This document shows positions 32,831 through 53,980 of a stretch of 64,000 bases of DNA, piece after piece. Made by a program: the position numbers and the translations under genes. The notes under the pieces were generated by a model. The model was not told where the DNA came from and did no database searches. It saw only the letters and a program-made list of their open reading frames with translations. How positions within the stretch are numbered: position 1 is the stretch's first letter; the number at the start of each line of letters is the position of its first letter. The DNA is from Pedobacter indicus (GTDB taxonomy: Bacteria > Bacteroidota > Bacteroidia > Sphingobacteriales > Sphingobacteriaceae), in NCBI RefSeq assembly GCF_003449035.1, contig NZ_QRGB01000001.1, positions 2,232,001 to 2,296,000 of the forward strand. The letters run 5' to 3'.

Positions 32831-33025
32831 TTAGTCGATAACGTTTGTATCGATGTCAGCTGAATCAATTACAGCAGTATCAACATCGTTAACAACCATA
32901 GTATCTTCTTCAATAAGTACATCCACTTCTTCTGCGTCTTGAGTCTCAGTTGGCTGAGAGTTACAAGCTGCTGCAGCAAAAGTTAAAGCTAATCCTAAGA
33001 AACCAAATTTGAATAGATTTTTCAT
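32831..33025 (-). CDS. Small acidic lipoprotein-like protein
   Basis: A 64-residue protein with a clear lipoprotein-type signal (KFGFLGLALTFAAAACNS, Cys at about 21). The mature tail is about 43 residues and very acidic, with repeated Asp/Val/Ile units such as VNDVDTAVIDSADIDTNVID. No family is recognised. The signal, a good downstream terminator and intact codon structure argue that it is expressed. It could be a small surface or periplasmic peptide; no partner gene is evident. Confidence 0.6.
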   Translation of the reverse strand: MKNLFKFGFLGLALTFAAAACNSQPTETQDAEEVDVLIEEDTMVVNDVDTAVIDSADIDTNVID

Positions 33026-33224
33026 TTTTAATTGTTTTTTTGTTGTTAAAATAACTAGTTTATTTTATCCTTAATACCCTATTTGGGAAAAGGTAACCCC
33101 TATGCTGAGAAAAAATAAAAATATTTTTAGTTCCTAATCCATAACACTTTCTAGAACCACCTTCGTTTATATTTATATATTTATGAAAAAATGGGTTACT
33201 TTTATTCGTTTTAAGTATTAAAAG

Positions 33225-33785
33225 GTGAACAGAGTACAAGAAGAATACAGAGATGATCAGGAGGTACTAAAAGGTATAGCTGAGGGTTCAACAGCAGAAC
33301 TAGAATATCTATATGCAAGCTACTATCCGATGGTCTATCAACTGATTGTGAAGAACAACGGAGATGAAGACGATGCAAAGGATATTTTTCAAGAAGCAGT
33401 TATCGTTCTGTATGATAAGGTGCAGTCGGGAGACTTCGTTCTTAGTAGTAAATTAGGAACTTTTCTTTATTCTGTTAGTAGGCGACTGTGGTTAAAGAGG
33501 TTAAATAAATCAGATCGATTAATACTCAATACTCAGGAGCAAGAAGAGCTGGTCGGAGTTGAAGATGATTTGGCAGAGTACTATCAGAAAGAAGATCAAT
33601 TTTTACTGATGGAGGAATCATTGCAGTTATTGGGTGAACCTTGTCAGACCATTATAAGTGATTTTTATCTGCATAATTTATCGATGCAGGAGATATGTGA
33701 AAAATTTGGTTATACGAACGCAGACAATGCGAAGAACCAGAAATATAAATGCTTACAACGATTAAAGAAACTATTTTTTAAATAA
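33225..33785 (+). CDS. ECF-type RNA polymerase sigma-70 factor
   Basis: A 186-residue ECF sigma factor with regions sigma2 (about 25-95, with DAKDIFQEAVIVLYDKV and GTFLYSVSRRLWLKRL) and sigma4 (about 125-180, with LSMQEICEKFGYTNADNAKNQKYKCLQRLKKLF). It begins with GTG at 33225, preceded by AAAAG. It lies 7 bases upstream of a membrane protein with an anti-sigma-like N-terminus and a protease domain, so they form a natural sigma/anti-sigma pair. Target promoters are unknown. Confidence 0.9.
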   Translation: MNRVQEEYRDDQEVLKGIAEGSTAELEYLYASYYPMVYQLIVKNNGDEDDAKDIFQEAVIVLYDKVQSGDFVLSSKLGTFLYSVSRRLWLKRLNKSDRLILNTQEQEELVGVEDDLAEYYQKEDQFLLMEESLQLLGEPCQTIISDFYLHNLSMQEICEKFGYTNADNAKNQKYKCLQRLKKLFFK

Positions 33786-33792
33786 AGATATA

Positions 33793-34887
33793 ATGAAGAA
33801 GGATTTAGATTTTATTACACAAGCTGATTCTTATATCAGAGGTGAAATGAGTCCAAATGAGCGGAAGGAGTTTGAAGACTACTGCAAAGAGAATCCAACG
33901 GAAGCCGTGCGATATGAAGAGCATCGACTTTTGGTACAGAAACTTAATGAATATCAGAATAGGATTGACTTTCGGGCGAAACTAGAACGTGTGAGTGCAA
34001 ATGTCAAGCTGAACGATGTGTTGGATAAGAATGATAGCAATAAGATTATTCGTTTCTGGAAAAGCCACGGTGTTGATATGTTGGTCGCAGCGTCGGTAGC
34101 TTTGCTTATTGTTTTTTCCACACTGTGGATGTCTGGTTTTTACAGCAATGTAAAAGACAATACCAGTATGTATAGTGCTCTAAAGCGTGATATGAATCGT
34201 ATTCAGAGTAACATGAACGCGCAAAACCGTGTAATCAATAATATAAGTTCAAATGTGCAAAAAACAGAACCTAGTAGTTTCGGAGGGACAGGGTTCGCTT
34301 TAACATCGAACGGGTATATTGCGACCAATTATCATGTTATTAGCGGCGCTGATTCTGTTTATGTGCAGAATGAAGAGGGAGCTTCGTTTAAAACGAACGT
34401 CGTTTATATTGATCCAACTTATGACATCGCTTTGCTAGAAATTGTTGATCCAACATTCCAAGAATTAGGTCCGTTGCCATACACTTTCAAAACTGAAGAA
34501 TCTGAACTAGGTCAGAATATATTCACTATTGGTTTCCCGCGTGAAGAGCCCGTGTATGGGAGAGGATATTTAAGTTCGAATACCGGTTATGGTGGAGATA
34601 CCGTAGCATACCAGGTATCTATTCCTGTGAACCCAGGTAATAGCGGCGGACCTGTTCTGGACGACTCTGGTAATGTGATCGGCGTAATCAATGGTAAACA
34701 AAAAGAAGCTGATGGCGCGGCCTTCGCCGTAAAAACAGAATATCTGTTAAAGTCACTCGAAAGTGTTTCGCGTGATTCGTTGGATAAGAATCTTGTTTAC
34801 AATAAAACAAATCTATTGAAAGGATTACCACGTACAGCACAAATAAAGAAAATAAAAGATTATATCTACATGGTCAAAGTATATTAA
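33793..34887 (+). CDS. Anti-sigma-like membrane protein with trypsin-like protease domain
   Basis: A 364-residue single-pass membrane protein. Residues 1-90 are cytosolic and resemble the N-terminus of anti-sigma factors (YIRGEMSPNERKEFEDYCKE). Residues 96-115 form the membrane segment, and a short, probably helical linker (about 120-155) follows. A trypsin/HtrA-like domain lies outside the membrane with the complete triad His181 (ATNYHVI), Asp211 (TYDIALLEI) and Ser284 (NPGNSGGP). No PDZ domain follows. The gene is 7 bases after the ECF sigma gene. The protein could join signal sensing or proteolysis to sigma control; this is inference. Confidence 0.85.
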   Translation: MKKDLDFITQADSYIRGEMSPNERKEFEDYCKENPTEAVRYEEHRLLVQKLNEYQNRIDFRAKLERVSANVKLNDVLDKNDSNKIIRFWKSHGVDMLVAASVALLIVFSTLWMSGFYSNVKDNTSMYSALKRDMNRIQSNMNAQNRVINNISSNVQKTEPSSFGGTGFALTSNGYIATNYHVISGADSVYVQNEEGASFKTNVVYIDPTYDIALLEIVDPTFQELGPLPYTFKTEESELGQNIFTIGFPREEPVYGRGYLSSNTGYGGDTVAYQVSIPVNPGNSGGPVLDDSGNVIGVINGKQKEADGAAFAVKTEYLLKSLESVSRDSLDKNLVYNKTNLLKGLPRTAQIKKIKDYIYMVKVY

Positions 34888-34906: not shown

Positions 34907-34937
34907 AAAGCGTGTTACTCTCAAGGTAATACGCTTT
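34907..34937 (+). terminator. Rho-independent terminator after the sigma/protease operon
   Basis: Arms AAAGCGTGTTAC and GTAATACGCTTT pair over 12 bp with one G-T pair around a seven-base loop. CTTTTTAT follows. It lies 20 bases after the protease stop. Confidence 0.85.
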
Positions 34938-35025: not shown

Positions 35026-36270
35026 ATGCTTAAAAATACACTTGTTACGGCCGTGCTATTTCTGACAGTTTCGATTGTATCCGCGCAGAAAATCGCATCC
35101 CTAACTGTTACGTTAACCAACTCTTCAGTTTCATCAAGCGTTCCGGCCAGTGTGTCGCTGGACAAAATCACACTACTTCCTGATTCGATGATTTCACTTT
35201 TTGAAATAACTGATGGTGATCGGAGGCCAGTAGCTTATCAGATTGACAATGGGCAGGAGCGTACCATGTATTGGTTGATTAGTCCTGGTAAAAAAGGGCA
35301 ACGTGTTTTCGAGCTCGTAGAGGCTAAACCCCAATTGGCTGATGATGCAGTAGAGGTCCAAGATGAAGATGGGGCTCTCTTGATTAAGTCAGCCGGGAAT
35401 AATTTATTGCGCTACGTTTATAAAACACGTTACCCGCCCGAAGGCGTTGATACAGCTTTTAAGCGCAGTGGCTTTATCCATCCTTTTTGGACACCAAAGG
35501 GGCAAGAGCTTACAAGAATAGACCCGCCAGATCACTACCATCACTATGGTTTGTGGAATCCATGGACCAAGGTGTTGTTCGAGGGAGATGTTGTTGACTT
35601 CTGGAATTTGAAAGATCGTAAAGGGACAGTGCGTTTTGCCAATCTTGTTTCGACAAATCAAGGCGCTGTGTATGGTGATTACCAAACCGTTCATGAGCAT
35701 ATAGCATTTAAAAAAGACGGAAAAGAAAAAGTAGCACTCAATGAGCTGCAGACCGTCCGTATCTACAAGCCAGATGCTGAGCAGGATTATTATGTTATGG
35801 ATATTACGATACAGATGAATTGCGCTTCAGCTAGTCCGGTGATCCTTCAAGAATATCGCTATGGTGGGTTAGGTTGGCGCGCGACTGAGGCATGGAATGA
35901 CGATAACAGTGAAATCTTAACATCGGAAGGTAAAACCAGAAAAGATGCAGACGGGAGTAAAGCTCGTTGGGTTATCGTACAGGGAGAGCTTGGTTCAGAT
36001 TATGGTGGTGCGGTTATGATGTCCTACCCGACAAATTATAATTACCCAGAGCCGCTTCGTATCTGGCCAGAAGGAATAAATGGTCGCGGCGATGTATATG
36101 CCAATTTTTCGCCAACAAAGGATAAAGATTGGCCGCTCTATCCGGGTAGTAATTATGTGCTGAAATACCGTTTCTTGGTTTATAACGGAAAAATGGACAA
36201 ACAACACGCAGAAAGCGCTTGGCAGCAATATGCTCATCCTCCAAAAGTGACAATCCATCTTGCTAACTAA
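35026..36270 (+). CDS. PmoA/DUF6807 family secreted protein
   Basis: A 414-residue protein with a signal peptide (1-20, ending VSAQK). It matches the PmoA/DUF6807 family: the core segment RSGFIHPFWTPKG is followed by DHYHHYGLWNPWTKVLF, a His-rich stretch near residues 166-182. The family was named methane oxygenase PmoA by early annotation, but it is found in carbohydrate loci and is unrelated to methane oxidation in this setting. It starts a four-gene operon with ThuA and two Gfo/Idh/MocA proteins, behind a LacI-type operator. The activity is unknown; a role in sugar metabolism is inferred from neighbours. Confidence 0.8.
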   Translation: MLKNTLVTAVLFLTVSIVSAQKIASLTVTLTNSSVSSSVPASVSLDKITLLPDSMISLFEITDGDRRPVAYQIDNGQERTMYWLISPGKKGQRVFELVEAKPQLADDAVEVQDEDGALLIKSAGNNLLRYVYKTRYPPEGVDTAFKRSGFIHPFWTPKGQELTRIDPPDHYHHYGLWNPWTKVLFEGDVVDFWNLKDRKGTVRFANLVSTNQGAVYGDYQTVHEHIAFKKDGKEKVALNELQTVRIYKPDAEQDYYVMDITIQMNCASASPVILQEYRYGGLGWRATEAWNDDNSEILTSEGKTRKDADGSKARWVIVQGELGSDYGGAVMMSYPTNYNYPEPLRIWPEGINGRGDVYANFSPTKDKDWPLYPGSNYVLKYRFLVYNGKMDKQHAESAWQQYAHPPKVTIHLAN

Positions 36271-36317
36271 CTCTTAACATATTAAATATTCAATCTTTTA
36301 CTTAAAAGTTTAAATCA

Positions 36318-37172
36318 ATGCCCAAAACTAAATTTCTGATGCAGGTACTGTTGTTTTTCTTTTTCATAGGAACTCCCACTGCCTTTGCTCATCCGCCAGC
36401 TAAAGCGCTAAAGAACAGTAAAATATTACTTTACACTAAGAATGGGAAAGGTTTTGTTCACGATAATATTGCGAGTGCGGTTGAGGCCATTAAAAAACTT
36501 GGCGAGGAAAATCGCTTTCAAGTTGTCGTGTCAGACGATCCGTCCGTTTTCACGGAAGATAATCTAAAACAATATAAATTACTGGTGTTTGCGAGTACAA
36601 ACAACGATGTTTTTGATACCGACGAACAGCGTGTGGCCTTTCGCAGATATATACAAGCAGGAGGGGGCTTTGTTGGTATACATTCAGTTACTGGAACGGA
36701 GAGGAACTGGACTTGGTTCAAGAAGATGATTGGTGGTACTTTCTCGTGGCATGCTGTTCTTCAGGATTTTAAAGTCATCAATATCAGACCAGAACACCCT
36801 TCGATGGAAGGCGTACCAAAAGAATGGATACGAAAAGATGAATGTTATTTTACGAAAGAAATGTATCCGGGAATCGTTGTGTTGATGGCACATGATCTAA
36901 CCTCATTGGATATGACCTTACGTAAAGATCAGAAGGCTTTAGTTGAAAAACATTCTGCGCATTTTGGTGAGCTTTACCCAGCCGTTTGGTATCAAAAGTT
37001 TGACGGTGGAAATATCTGGGTAACTACTTTGGGGCATATGAAGGAAAGCTACGAGGATCCTCAGTTCATGAAACACATCTTGCAAGGAATTAACCATGTT
37101 GCTAGTGAAACAAAGAAATTAGACTACAGCAAAGCCTATGCAACAGACAGGGACGATGCTGTACGTTATTAA
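36318..37172 (+). CDS. ThuA-like domain protein, secreted
   Basis: A 284-residue protein with a signal peptide (about 1-24, ending AFAHP) and a ThuA domain of the class I glutamine amidotransferase-like fold. Segments are YTKNGKGFVHDNI, LLVFASTNNDVFD, GGGFVGIHSVTGTERNW and the late VWYQKFDGGNIWVTTLGH. In Rhizobium, ThuA works with the Gfo/Idh/MocA dehydrogenase ThuB on trehalose and related disaccharides through 3-keto sugars. Two Gfo/Idh/MocA genes follow here, so a similar 3-keto-sugar role is plausible. Confidence 0.85.
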   Translation: MPKTKFLMQVLLFFFFIGTPTAFAHPPAKALKNSKILLYTKNGKGFVHDNIASAVEAIKKLGEENRFQVVVSDDPSVFTEDNLKQYKLLVFASTNNDVFDTDEQRVAFRRYIQAGGGFVGIHSVTGTERNWTWFKKMIGGTFSWHAVLQDFKVINIRPEHPSMEGVPKEWIRKDECYFTKEMYPGIVVLMAHDLTSLDMTLRKDQKALVEKHSAHFGELYPAVWYQKFDGGNIWVTTLGHMKESYEDPQFMKHILQGINHVASETKKLDYSKAYATDRDDAVRY

Positions 37173-37206
37173 CTAATCAACTAATCAATCTAAATTTTAA
37201 CTTACC

Positions 37207-38619
37207 ATGACTAACTCAGGAAGAAGTTCTTTTATTAACCGAAGAGATTTTGTTAAAACTGCTGCGGCAGGCTCTGTGGCATTTTCAGGTTTTCCATCCA
37301 TCGTGCCGTCTTTTGTTTTGGGAAAAAACGCACCAAGTAATCAAATCAATATCGGTCAAATTGGCTGTGGGCGTATTGCCCAAACTCATGATTTGCCAGA
37401 AACATTTAAAAATAAGAATGTTCGTATTGTCGGAGTTAGCGATGTAGACCGAAGCCGTCAACAAGGCTGTAAAAGGTTGGTTGAGGGGTGGTATGCCAAA
37501 AGAGATGGAGGGAGTCGGTCGGTAGATATTAAAGAGTATGACGATTACCATGATATGTTGGCAAACAAAGACATTGATGCGGTGATTATTAGTACGCCCG
37601 ATCATTGGCACGCGCAACCCGCTATTGAGGCAGCGCTGGCTGGCAAGCATATTTACCTCCAGAAACCAACATCGTTAACGATTGAAGAAGGTAGGCAGAT
37701 GAGTGATGCTGTCCAGAAAGCAGGTGTTGTATTCCAGCTTGGTAGTCAGCAACGTTCCATGAGTCCTTGGCCTCAATTTAAAAAGGCTTGTGAATTGGTG
37801 CGCAACGGTCGTATAGGCAAAATCCATACAGTAAAAATAGGTCTACCGTTTGATCCCGCCGGCGGAGTATCTACAGAAATGCCAATACCAGAAGGATTTA
37901 ATTATGACATGTGGTTGGGGTCGACTCCATATGTTCCTTATACGATTGATCGTGTTCATCCTGAAAATCCGCATGACCGGGGTGGATGGTTGCGCCTGGA
38001 GCAATTCGGTGCAGGAATGATTACAGGATGGGGGGTGCATCATATTGATATTGCTCATTGGGGCATGGATACAGAACTTACCGGGCCGATTGAAGTGGAA
38101 GCCACAGCAGAATTCCCGACAACCGGTTTATGGAACGTCCATGGCAAATATGAAGCTCGGGCTCGTTATAAAAATGGTGTTGAAATGCTGATGGGAGATT
38201 ATCCTAACGGCGTTCGCTTTGAGGGAAGCGATGGATGGATTTTCGTAAGTAGGGGAAATGTTGGTGTTACAGCCAGTGACCCAACCAGTGGGGATAACAA
38301 AGCATTTCAGGCGAGCGACCCTAAAATACTCGGTTCGGAAATCGGTCAAAACGAGATCCATTTATATGCCAGTCCGGAGCAACATCAGAACTGGGTAGAA
38401 TGTATCGTTGATAAGAAAGAGACCATTAGTCCGGTTGAAGTAGCCCATCGGTCATGCAGTGCTTGTCTGGTACTTCACGCGGCGATGAAGGTGCCGGGGA
38501 AACTCTATTGGGATCCAAAAAAAGAGGAATTCAAAGATAATGTAGAAGCAAATAAGCTTTTATCAAGACCTCAGCGATACCCTTATGGAACCAATTATGT
38601 TCAGTATAAAAAGGGCTAA
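37207..38619 (+). CDS. Gfo/Idh/MocA family oxidoreductase, Tat-exported
   Basis: A 470-residue Gfo/Idh/MocA oxidoreductase. The N-terminus has a Tat signal with Arg12-Arg13 in NRRDFVKTAAAG and a hydrophobic stretch to about residue 38. The NAD(P)-binding loop is IGQIGCGRIAQTHD (46-60). The usual EKP catalytic motif appears as QKP in LQKPTSLTIEE, and the late WGVHHIDIAHWGM segment is conserved. Tat export suggests that it folds with its cofactor before crossing to the periplasm. It is third in the operon. Confidence 0.9.
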   Translation: MTNSGRSSFINRRDFVKTAAAGSVAFSGFPSIVPSFVLGKNAPSNQINIGQIGCGRIAQTHDLPETFKNKNVRIVGVSDVDRSRQQGCKRLVEGWYAKRDGGSRSVDIKEYDDYHDMLANKDIDAVIISTPDHWHAQPAIEAALAGKHIYLQKPTSLTIEEGRQMSDAVQKAGVVFQLGSQQRSMSPWPQFKKACELVRNGRIGKIHTVKIGLPFDPAGGVSTEMPIPEGFNYDMWLGSTPYVPYTIDRVHPENPHDRGGWLRLEQFGAGMITGWGVHHIDIAHWGMDTELTGPIEVEATAEFPTTGLWNVHGKYEARARYKNGVEMLMGDYPNGVRFEGSDGWIFVSRGNVGVTASDPTSGDNKAFQASDPKILGSEIGQNEIHLYASPEQHQNWVECIVDKKETISPVEVAHRSCSACLVLHAAMKVPGKLYWDPKKEEFKDNVEANKLLSRPQRYPYGTNYVQYKKG

Positions 38620-52924: not shown

Positions 52925-53980
52925 ATGAATTTTTACAGAAATAATGTGACGCATATCGCTTTAATTGTGTTTGTTTTCTCACTTTTTACTACCGAGACGT
53001 CTTTCGCGCAAACGAAAGATGTGAAAGTTGCCAAGATTTGGGAAGCTGGCGAACACAATGCGTTTACAGATTTGGTATACTTCAACGATCGCTTTTATTG
53101 CACGTTCCGAGAGGCTGCTGGACACGTACCGAAGTCTAACGCTGAAGATGGAAAAATTCGAGTATTAGAATCTAAGGACGGGAAAAAATGGAAATCGGTG
53201 GGTTTGCTTGAAAAAGATAAGTACGATTTACGTGACTCGAAACTATCAGTTACACCGGAAGGCAGGCTTATGGTGTTAATGGGCGGGTCGGTATATGAGC
53301 ATGGGAAGTTTATTAGTAGGCTGAACCATGTGTCATTTTTCGACAGCGAAAAAAATGAGTTTTCAGAATTGCAACCTGTAAACATGGATGCAACAATTAA
53401 GTCGCCGGGAGACTGGCTGTGGCGGGTAACTTGGGAAGGGGATACGGGTTACGGTGTAGTATACCGGAAGATGGACAAAAGTGGGAGTATGGCTTATTTA
53501 GTGTCGACGAAAGATGGGATAAACTATTCTTTAATCTATGCTTTAGATGTATTCGGATTACCAGGTGAATCTACTGTTGATTTCATCAATGATAAGATGG
53601 TTATTTTAATGCGGAGAGACGGTGAAGGGCAATACGGTTATTGGGGGAAAAGTAACCCGCCATATACAAGATGGGAATGGACGGATATGGGTTATCGCCT
53701 GGGTGGGCCAGATATGGTTCAGACAAGTAATGGAAAGATTGTGGTAGGAACAAGAAGTTTTTCTGACAACATGAGGGAAAATCCAAAAACTTCGCTTTAC
53801 CTATCTGATGAGAACGGCAAAATGGAGCTGCTGCTGACACTCCCAAGCGGTGGCGATACAAGTTATCCGGGAATGGTGGAGCACGATGGTAAACTATGGG
53901 TATCATACTATTCGTCACACGAAGGGAAATCAAATATTTATTTAGCAGAAATACCTCTTAATTACTTAGAGTTAAAATAA
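52925..53980 (+). CDS. Sialidase-like beta-propeller protein (BNR/exo-alpha-sialidase family)
   Basis: A 351-residue secreted protein (signal peptide 1 to about 29, ending SFAQT) with the sialidase/BNR propeller pattern. Asp-box-like repeats are visible in ESKDGKKWKSVG and STKDGINYSLIY. Candidate sialidase arginines occur in FYCTFREAAGH and in a later MRRDGEGQYGYWG, with an acidic candidate in GESTVDF. The canonical FRIP motif is not evident, so a true GH33 activity is uncertain and another glycoside or binding function is possible. It lies 12 bases after susD and 22 before the FAD oxidoreductase. Confidence 0.75.
   Translation: MNFYRNNVTHIALIVFVFSLFTTETSFAQTKDVKVAKIWEAGEHNAFTDLVYFNDRFYCTFREAAGHVPKSNAEDGKIRVLESKDGKKWKSVGLLEKDKYDLRDSKLSVTPEGRLMVLMGGSVYEHGKFISRLNHVSFFDSEKNEFSELQPVNMDATIKSPGDWLWRVTWEGDTGYGVVYRKMDKSGSMAYLVSTKDGINYSLIYALDVFGLPGESTVDFINDKMVILMRRDGEGQYGYWGKSNPPYTRWEWTDMGYRLGGPDMVQTSNGKIVVGTRSFSDNMRENPKTSLYLSDENGKMELLLTLPSGGDTSYPGMVEHDGKLWVSYYSSHEGKSNIYLAEIPLNYLELK

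Follow-up and report, generated by a model that had tools for sequence, protein, structure and literature searches.

In ECF sigma/anti-sigma pairs, the sigma factor is set free by proteolysis at site 1, at site 2 and in the cytosol, and regulated proteolysis of the anti-sigma factor normally requires a separate site-1 protease. For RseA this protease is the HtrA-type DegS, and HtrA proteases recognize their substrates through the PDZ domain. The locus described here, from a 64,000-nucleotide stretch of the Pedobacter indicus chromosome (hereafter the window), resembles the sigmaE/RseA/DegS/RseP system of E. coli, as well as AlgU/MucA/AlgW of P. aeruginosa, in that it involves an ECF sigma factor, a probable single-span anti-sigma factor, an HtrA-type trypsin-like protease that may act at site 1, and an M50 site-2 protease. 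It differs from the sigmaE system in that the equivalents of RseA and DegS would be parts of one polypeptide, a PDZ domain that could bind unfolded OMP C-termini is missing, the locus has no conserved RseB-like neighbour, and the predicted regulon is dominated by one small lipoprotein.

The RsgI anti-sigmaI factors are cleaved by SEAL autoproteolysis, and some of them carry peptidase-like C-terminal domains, such as RsgI9, the protease-homologous domain of which has been reported to bind polysaccharide (PMC12203970). RsgI demonstrates that the first periplasmic cut can come from the anti-sigma factor itself, which may also hold for the P. indicus protein, and that such a factor can bear an extracytoplasmic domain resembling a peptidase. 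However, the sigma type and the autocleavage domain are unrelated, and, in contrast to RsgI9, the domain found here is a conserved catalytic domain of the HtrA-like type, the triad of which is invariant. The Dma1/Dma2-type and M0N98_03760-type anti-sigma factors of Bacteroides/Phocaeicola are likewise unusual multi-domain proteins that are paired with ECF sigma factors and linked to envelope stress (PMC13088901, PMC9308784). However, those proteins reach across the envelope as far as an outer-membrane barrel, whereas the P. indicus protein has one membrane span and a protease domain.

Comparative analysis of the locus suggests, with a probability of roughly 0.6, that the sigma factor, the anti-sigma/protease fusion and a divergently encoded small lipoprotein form a three-part, autoregulated envelope-sensing module that combines self-contained regulated proteolysis with a one-output regulon.

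Organization and distribution of the sigma–fusion operon

The product of the first gene (33225..33785, forward strand; 186 aa, GTG start) is an ECF sigma factor. It matched TIGR02937 (sigma70-ECF) over residues 25–182 with 72.8 bits against a cut-off of 42.9 (E=2.5e-20) and Pfam Sigma70_r2 above its cut-off (6.3e-9); the Pfam profile search gave no separate region 4 match. The fusion gene (33793..34887, forward strand; 364 aa, ATG start) begins 7 nt after the sigma stop codon, so that the reading frames agree with the gene order and spacing given in the preliminary description. A terminator-like hairpin of 13 pairs with a T-rich tail, detected by a consensus-only scan, lies at the 3′ end of the two-gene operon (34907..34937, forward strand). 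Past the hairpin, positions 35026–38619 hold an apparently separate sugar-related cluster, the genes of which, named by reading the sequence alone, encode a 414-aa secreted protein, a ThuA-like protein and a Gfo/Idh-like oxidoreductase.

The fusion gene is present in a single copy in the P. indicus genome. With cut-offs set to leave out ordinary HtrA proteins, it was detected in 84 of the 91 good Sphingobacteriaceae genomes, in 282 of the 292 from a second family that matches named Chitinophagaceae loci and in all 148 of a third, whose named relatives include Hymenobacter and Pontibacter (the names of the second and third families were deduced from named loci). The sigma–fusion pair is near-universal and single-copy in these three large families; the fusion was not found in most of the other Bacteroidota sampled. 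One contig titled as a Bifidobacterium breve MAG also encodes the fusion; this bin is almost certainly of Bacteroidota origin and either mislabelled or contaminated.

A survey of the two-gene pair, which the preliminary description had recommended, placed a sigma gene directly upstream and on the same strand in all 319 untruncated full-length homologues of the fusion, and the gene order can therefore not be due to chance. Outside this set are two homologues at contig ends and L060, a secreted relative that has no anti-sigma part. No other gene of at least 100 aa was common to the flanks of all loci; the short lipoprotein gene described below was missed in that survey because the 100-aa cut-off hid small genes. 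The purB gene was considered as a conserved neighbour and dropped, its adjacency being limited to close relatives.

Promoter and predicted regulon

A k-mer analysis of the regions upstream of 304 homologous sigma genes picked out GTATTAA and GGGTTAC, the latter occurring in 111.5 of 115.5 weighted sequences. GGGTTAC precedes 294 of the 304 genes and the full motif, with a spacing of N15 or N16, precedes 289, with GTATTAA exact in 276. At the P. indicus locus, GGGTTAC-N15-GTATTAA forms the predicted promoter of the sigma–fusion operon (33193..33221, forward strand), and motif search revealed a divergent copy of the type GGGTTACC (33071..33099, reverse strand). Only 3 nt separate the end of the operon promoter from the GTG codon of the sigma gene, and the next in-frame ATG is codon 36, which falls within sigma region 2; the transcript therefore probably has little or no leader.

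The distribution of the promoter follows that of the fusion. In 101 Sphingobacteriaceae genomes, the exact promoter was found in precisely the 89 that encode the fusion; the remaining 12 have neither. In a sample of the phylum, it was present in 24 of 27 genomes with the fusion and in 3 of 358 others (Fisher 1e-31), the latter rate being about equal to, or below, that of a reversed-motif control. Given this near-perfect co-occurrence across genomes, GGGTTAC-N15/16-GTATTAA is very probably recognized by this sigma factor. The exact N15 copies in the P. indicus genome are confined to the divergent pair, and near-matches are no commoner than those of the reversed-motif control (matches with two mismatches are rarer). 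A transporter gene contains a third exact match (N16 spacing, position 1468932), which was rejected as a chance occurrence. The near-match GGGTTACTTTTCCCCCAATAACCGTATT (53631–53658, reverse strand), which also lies inside a gene and continues with GCC instead of AA, is probably due to chance.

Because the promoter tracks the fusion and its exact N15 copies are limited here to the divergent pair, the conserved regulon appears to consist of the sigma–fusion operon and the lipoprotein gene, extended in some relatives only by a gene encoding a DUF4294 protein. It may be larger, since exact-motif scans miss degenerate promoters. The gene for the secreted DUF4294 (PF14127) protein carries GGGTTAC-N15-GTATTAA at four of the loci analysed; no DUF4294 gene with this promoter was found in the P. 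indicus genome, and DUF4294 was consequently dropped as a core member of the regulon and is regarded as a putative additional target of the sigma factor in certain lineages only.

The divergently encoded lipoprotein

The ATG codon of the small lipoprotein gene (32831..33025, reverse strand) lies 45 nt past the divergent promoter. The predicted product of 64 aa contains a signal peptide, a lipobox (...AAAC) and an acidic tail with the D[ST]x motifs DTM, DTA and DSA. The preliminary description, which covered 33225–34887, was right as to the two-gene pair but left out this third conserved part of the locus (32831–33099, reverse strand); it mentioned neither the sigma-type promoter nor the lipoprotein, nor how small the regulon is, and all three limit the possible purposes of the sigma/fusion system.

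A divergent ORF encoding a signal peptide and a lipobox was identified at 165 of the 193 loci with enough sequence. In genomes that have no divergent copy, the lipoprotein gene was found elsewhere behind the same promoter in 10 of 10 cases checked (nine from one genus and one further), with the promoter 44–48 nt before the gene. Named Sphingobacterium loci have no divergent lipoprotein gene, and the nine-genome genus has the same gap. At three further loci, two to three paralogous lipoprotein genes stand in tandem, and every one of them is preceded by a copy of the promoter.

The sequence D-[ST]-hydrophobic/T is the O-glycosylation motif of non-cytoplasmic proteins in Bacteroidota (PMC12871550). 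The mature lipoprotein tails contain on average 3.9 D[ST][AILVMT] motifs, compared with 0.80 in shuffled tails and 0.79 for the reversed motif. On this motif content, the lipoprotein would qualify as a Bacteroidota general O-glycoprotein, and it may be glycosylated. The nearest named family, the PG1828-family lipoproteins (NCBIfam NF050142), comprises small proteins of similar length and layout; the P. indicus lipoprotein (1e-7, 32.6 bits) and its relatives (39.1 and 49.8 bits, best 4e-13) score below the curated cut-off of 50, and the link to a dedicated sigma factor and promoter is new here.

The lipoprotein may itself be the main purpose of the system, as an abundant O-glycosylated coat of the cell surface or periplasm, with the sigma/protease pair as the controller of its level. 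According to this alternative, which is tentative but deserves serious consideration, the lipoprotein takes no part in signal sensing; the alternative is otherwise compatible with the envelope-sensing module except for the feedback step described below. It is favoured by the lipoprotein being the one recurrent target, by its several tandem copies in some genomes and by the PG1828 lipoproteins being its closest named relatives. However, the divergent placement, the near-absolute co-occurrence and the tiny size of the lipoprotein would suit a feedback element equally well.

Architecture of the fusion protein and its protease domain

The AlphaFold2 model of the fusion (mean pLDDT 83) consists of an N-terminal helical domain, a membrane helix, a coil (residues 124–151), a trypsin-like fold (160–323) and a C-terminal helix and strand. 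The single transmembrane helix was assigned to residues of about 91–118 (34063..34146, forward strand) by hydropathy, which gave only one hydrophobic stretch, and corresponds to a modelled helix of residues 82–117; the basic residues preceding it suggest an N-in orientation. It is followed by a periplasmic linker and coil (residues 119–158; 34147..34266, forward strand) that are poorly conserved and modelled with low confidence, and this region is a candidate for the site of cleavage.

The HtrA/trypsin-like protease domain (residues 159–323; 34267..34761, forward strand) was recognized by Pfam Trypsin_2 over residues 165–298 (7.5e-26) and, in Foldseek, by HtrA1 and DegS-deltaPDZ (E about 1e-12). 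Neither the Pfam matches nor the AlphaFold2 model include a PDZ domain; the protein ends instead in a conserved helix–strand module (residues 347–364, R..QIKK.QDYVYMVKVY; 34831..34884, forward strand). The fusion shares its protease fold, catalytic triad and membrane anchor with DegS, HtrA1 and the MarP family, but it has no PDZ domain, carries an anti-sigma-type N-terminus in the cytosol and scores far below the curated cut-offs of MarP (91.6 of 250 bits) and DegS (TIGR02038, 58.5 of 423 bits); its score against TIGR02037 is also below the cut-off (81.5 of 416 bits).

The catalytic residues His181 (34333..34335), Asp211 (34423..34425) and Ser284 (34642..34644, in NPGNSGGP; all forward strand) were unchanged in 58 of 58 homologues and later in all 305 distinct sequences, and the protease has therefore been selected to stay active. 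The one membrane span, the extracytoplasmic protease domain and the exact positions of the intact triad had all been recognized in the preliminary description and are borne out by these data.

Proteases that have no anti-sigma part (L060, L126 and L127, which are secreted, and also L134 and L138) contain a catalytic domain like that of the fusion and end in a similar helix and strand (...YVYMVKVY or ...FVYIIEVR). These shared features suggest that the fusion arose by capture of an older PDZ-less protease family.

Instead of cutting itself, the fusion could handle other envelope proteins in quality control, with the binding of damaged proteins altering its conformation, so that the anti-sigma half is switched or is cut by a protease other than the fused one. 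Quality control is a known function of HtrA proteins, and the secreted proteases L060, L126 and L127 combine the same catalytic and C-terminal modules without an anti-sigma part; the separate HtrA/DegP-like homologue encoded in the P. indicus genome may be counted in favour of this explanation as well. However, the fusion is devoid of the domain that HtrA proteases use for substrate recognition, and its strict one-to-one linkage to a sigma gene suggests signalling rather than a general role, which makes such an occupancy reporter the less likely explanation.

The anti-sigma-type N-terminal domain

The N-terminus of the fusion (residues 1–84, with helices 2–16, 21–33 and 35–82; 33793..34044, forward strand) can be regarded with high confidence as an anti-sigma domain. 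This assignment is based on four agreeing lines of evidence, namely sigma linkage, family matches in relatives, fold and residue couplings, each of which is non-decisive alone.

When residues 1–84 were modelled separately by AlphaFold2 (pLDDT 89.5), Foldseek returned 18 PDB matches with E up to 10, among them six anti-sigma chains at ranks 1, 2, 7, 11, 14 and 15 (two of RsiW, three of MucA and one of RslA). RsiW occupied ranks 1–2, with an rmsd of 1.5 Å over 46 residues; the E-values are singly insignificant (best 2.6). The NCBIfam anti-sigma family NF052375 was matched by 23 of 46 homologues (best 2.5e-6) and zf-HC2 weakly by nine of the 46 (best 0.0026). The P. indicus fusion reached 0.042 with NF052375 (13.8 of 100 bits), and searches of Pfam and NCBIfam found no anti-sigma family above cut-off and no confident Pfam match for residues 1–90. 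A profile of the N-terminus gave only chance-like matches among PDB sequences (nuclear receptors and an unnamed fusion protein), and the domain is shorter in some homologues. The anti-sigma-like character proposed in the preliminary description is accordingly upheld by fold, by the family matches of relatives and by sigma linkage, but not by a confident Pfam match of the protein itself.

In class I anti-sigma factors, helix 4 contacts sigma2.1-2.2 and helix 1 contacts sigma4 (PMC7406223). Mean-field coevolution analysis of 305 paired sigma–fusion sequences placed seven of the top 20 sigma–N-terminus couplings inside this published interface, against 2.2 expected, with the bounds of the interface regions (sigma2.1-2.2 with helix 4, sigma4 with helix 1) fixed after the ranked list had been viewed. 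The position pattern corresponds to a shift-null P of about 0.007, and a control with swapped assignment gave 2. Overall coupling strength between the sigma factor and the N-terminus did not exceed that of the sigma–linker and sigma–protease controls; coupling magnitude was therefore dropped as evidence of contact, and only the position pattern was retained as weak support.

That the N-terminus is an activator or a mere protease anchor, with control of the sigma factor left to a different gene or solely to transcription, would fit the below-threshold family scores of the P. indicus protein and the small share (6 %) of Bacteroidetes ECF sigma factors that are encoded near a class I anti-sigma factor (PMC7406223), but is very improbable in view of the fold matches to three anti-sigma families, the presence of NF052375 in half of the homologues, the interface-shaped couplings and the absolute linkage at 319 loci.

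Proposed mechanism

In the proposed envelope-sensing module, the fusion would reside in the inner membrane with its N-terminus inside and would hold the ECF sigma factor through the anti-sigma-type domain. The periplasmic PDZ-less HtrA-like protease would serve as both sensor and site-1 protease. Once activated, it would cut the anti-sigma factor in the poorly conserved juxtamembrane linker, either within the same molecule or in an adjacent copy of the protein; the chances of such self-cleavage at site 1 are considered to be about even. The RseP-type M50 site-2 protease, which is encoded in the P. indicus genome, would then free the sigma factor. Through GGGTTAC-N15/16-GTATTAA, the released sigma factor would mainly transcribe two units, namely its own operon, which it would positively autoregulate and the mRNA of which would be near-leaderless, and the gene of the small lipoprotein.

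The lipoprotein would be the dedicated output of this pathway. More speculatively, it could be a feedback element that rests the protease, for example as a competing substrate or ligand, but such feedback is somewhat doubtful. It is still less probable that the module monitors lipoprotein maturation or O-glycosylation, with the motif-rich lipoprotein crossing the periplasm as a reporter. If it did, the under-glycosylated or unexported lipoprotein would be a substrate or ligand of the protease and would cause it to destroy its own anti-sigma half, whereas the glycan-coated lipoprotein would be protease-resistant and the system would shut off.

Conclusions

In Bacteroidota, most ECF sigma factors have no recognized class I anti-sigma factor nearby (PMC7406223). 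At the locus analysed here, one polypeptide appears to join the restraint of a sigma factor with its own periplasmic protease; a search of the literature, mainly of open-access text, found no description of an anti-sigma factor with a fused active trypsin-like protease. Judging by the promoter evidence, the sigma factor would be devoted almost entirely to itself and to a tiny, sugar-acceptor-like lipoprotein, and the system may for this reason represent a new, self-contained envelope-sensing module. With its promoter, minimal regulon and small lipoprotein, the module is directly testable and the competing models can be separated. The fusion occurs once per genome in almost all sampled members of three large environmental families, and the sigma/fusion system therefore probably belongs to the core envelope responses of these bacteria.
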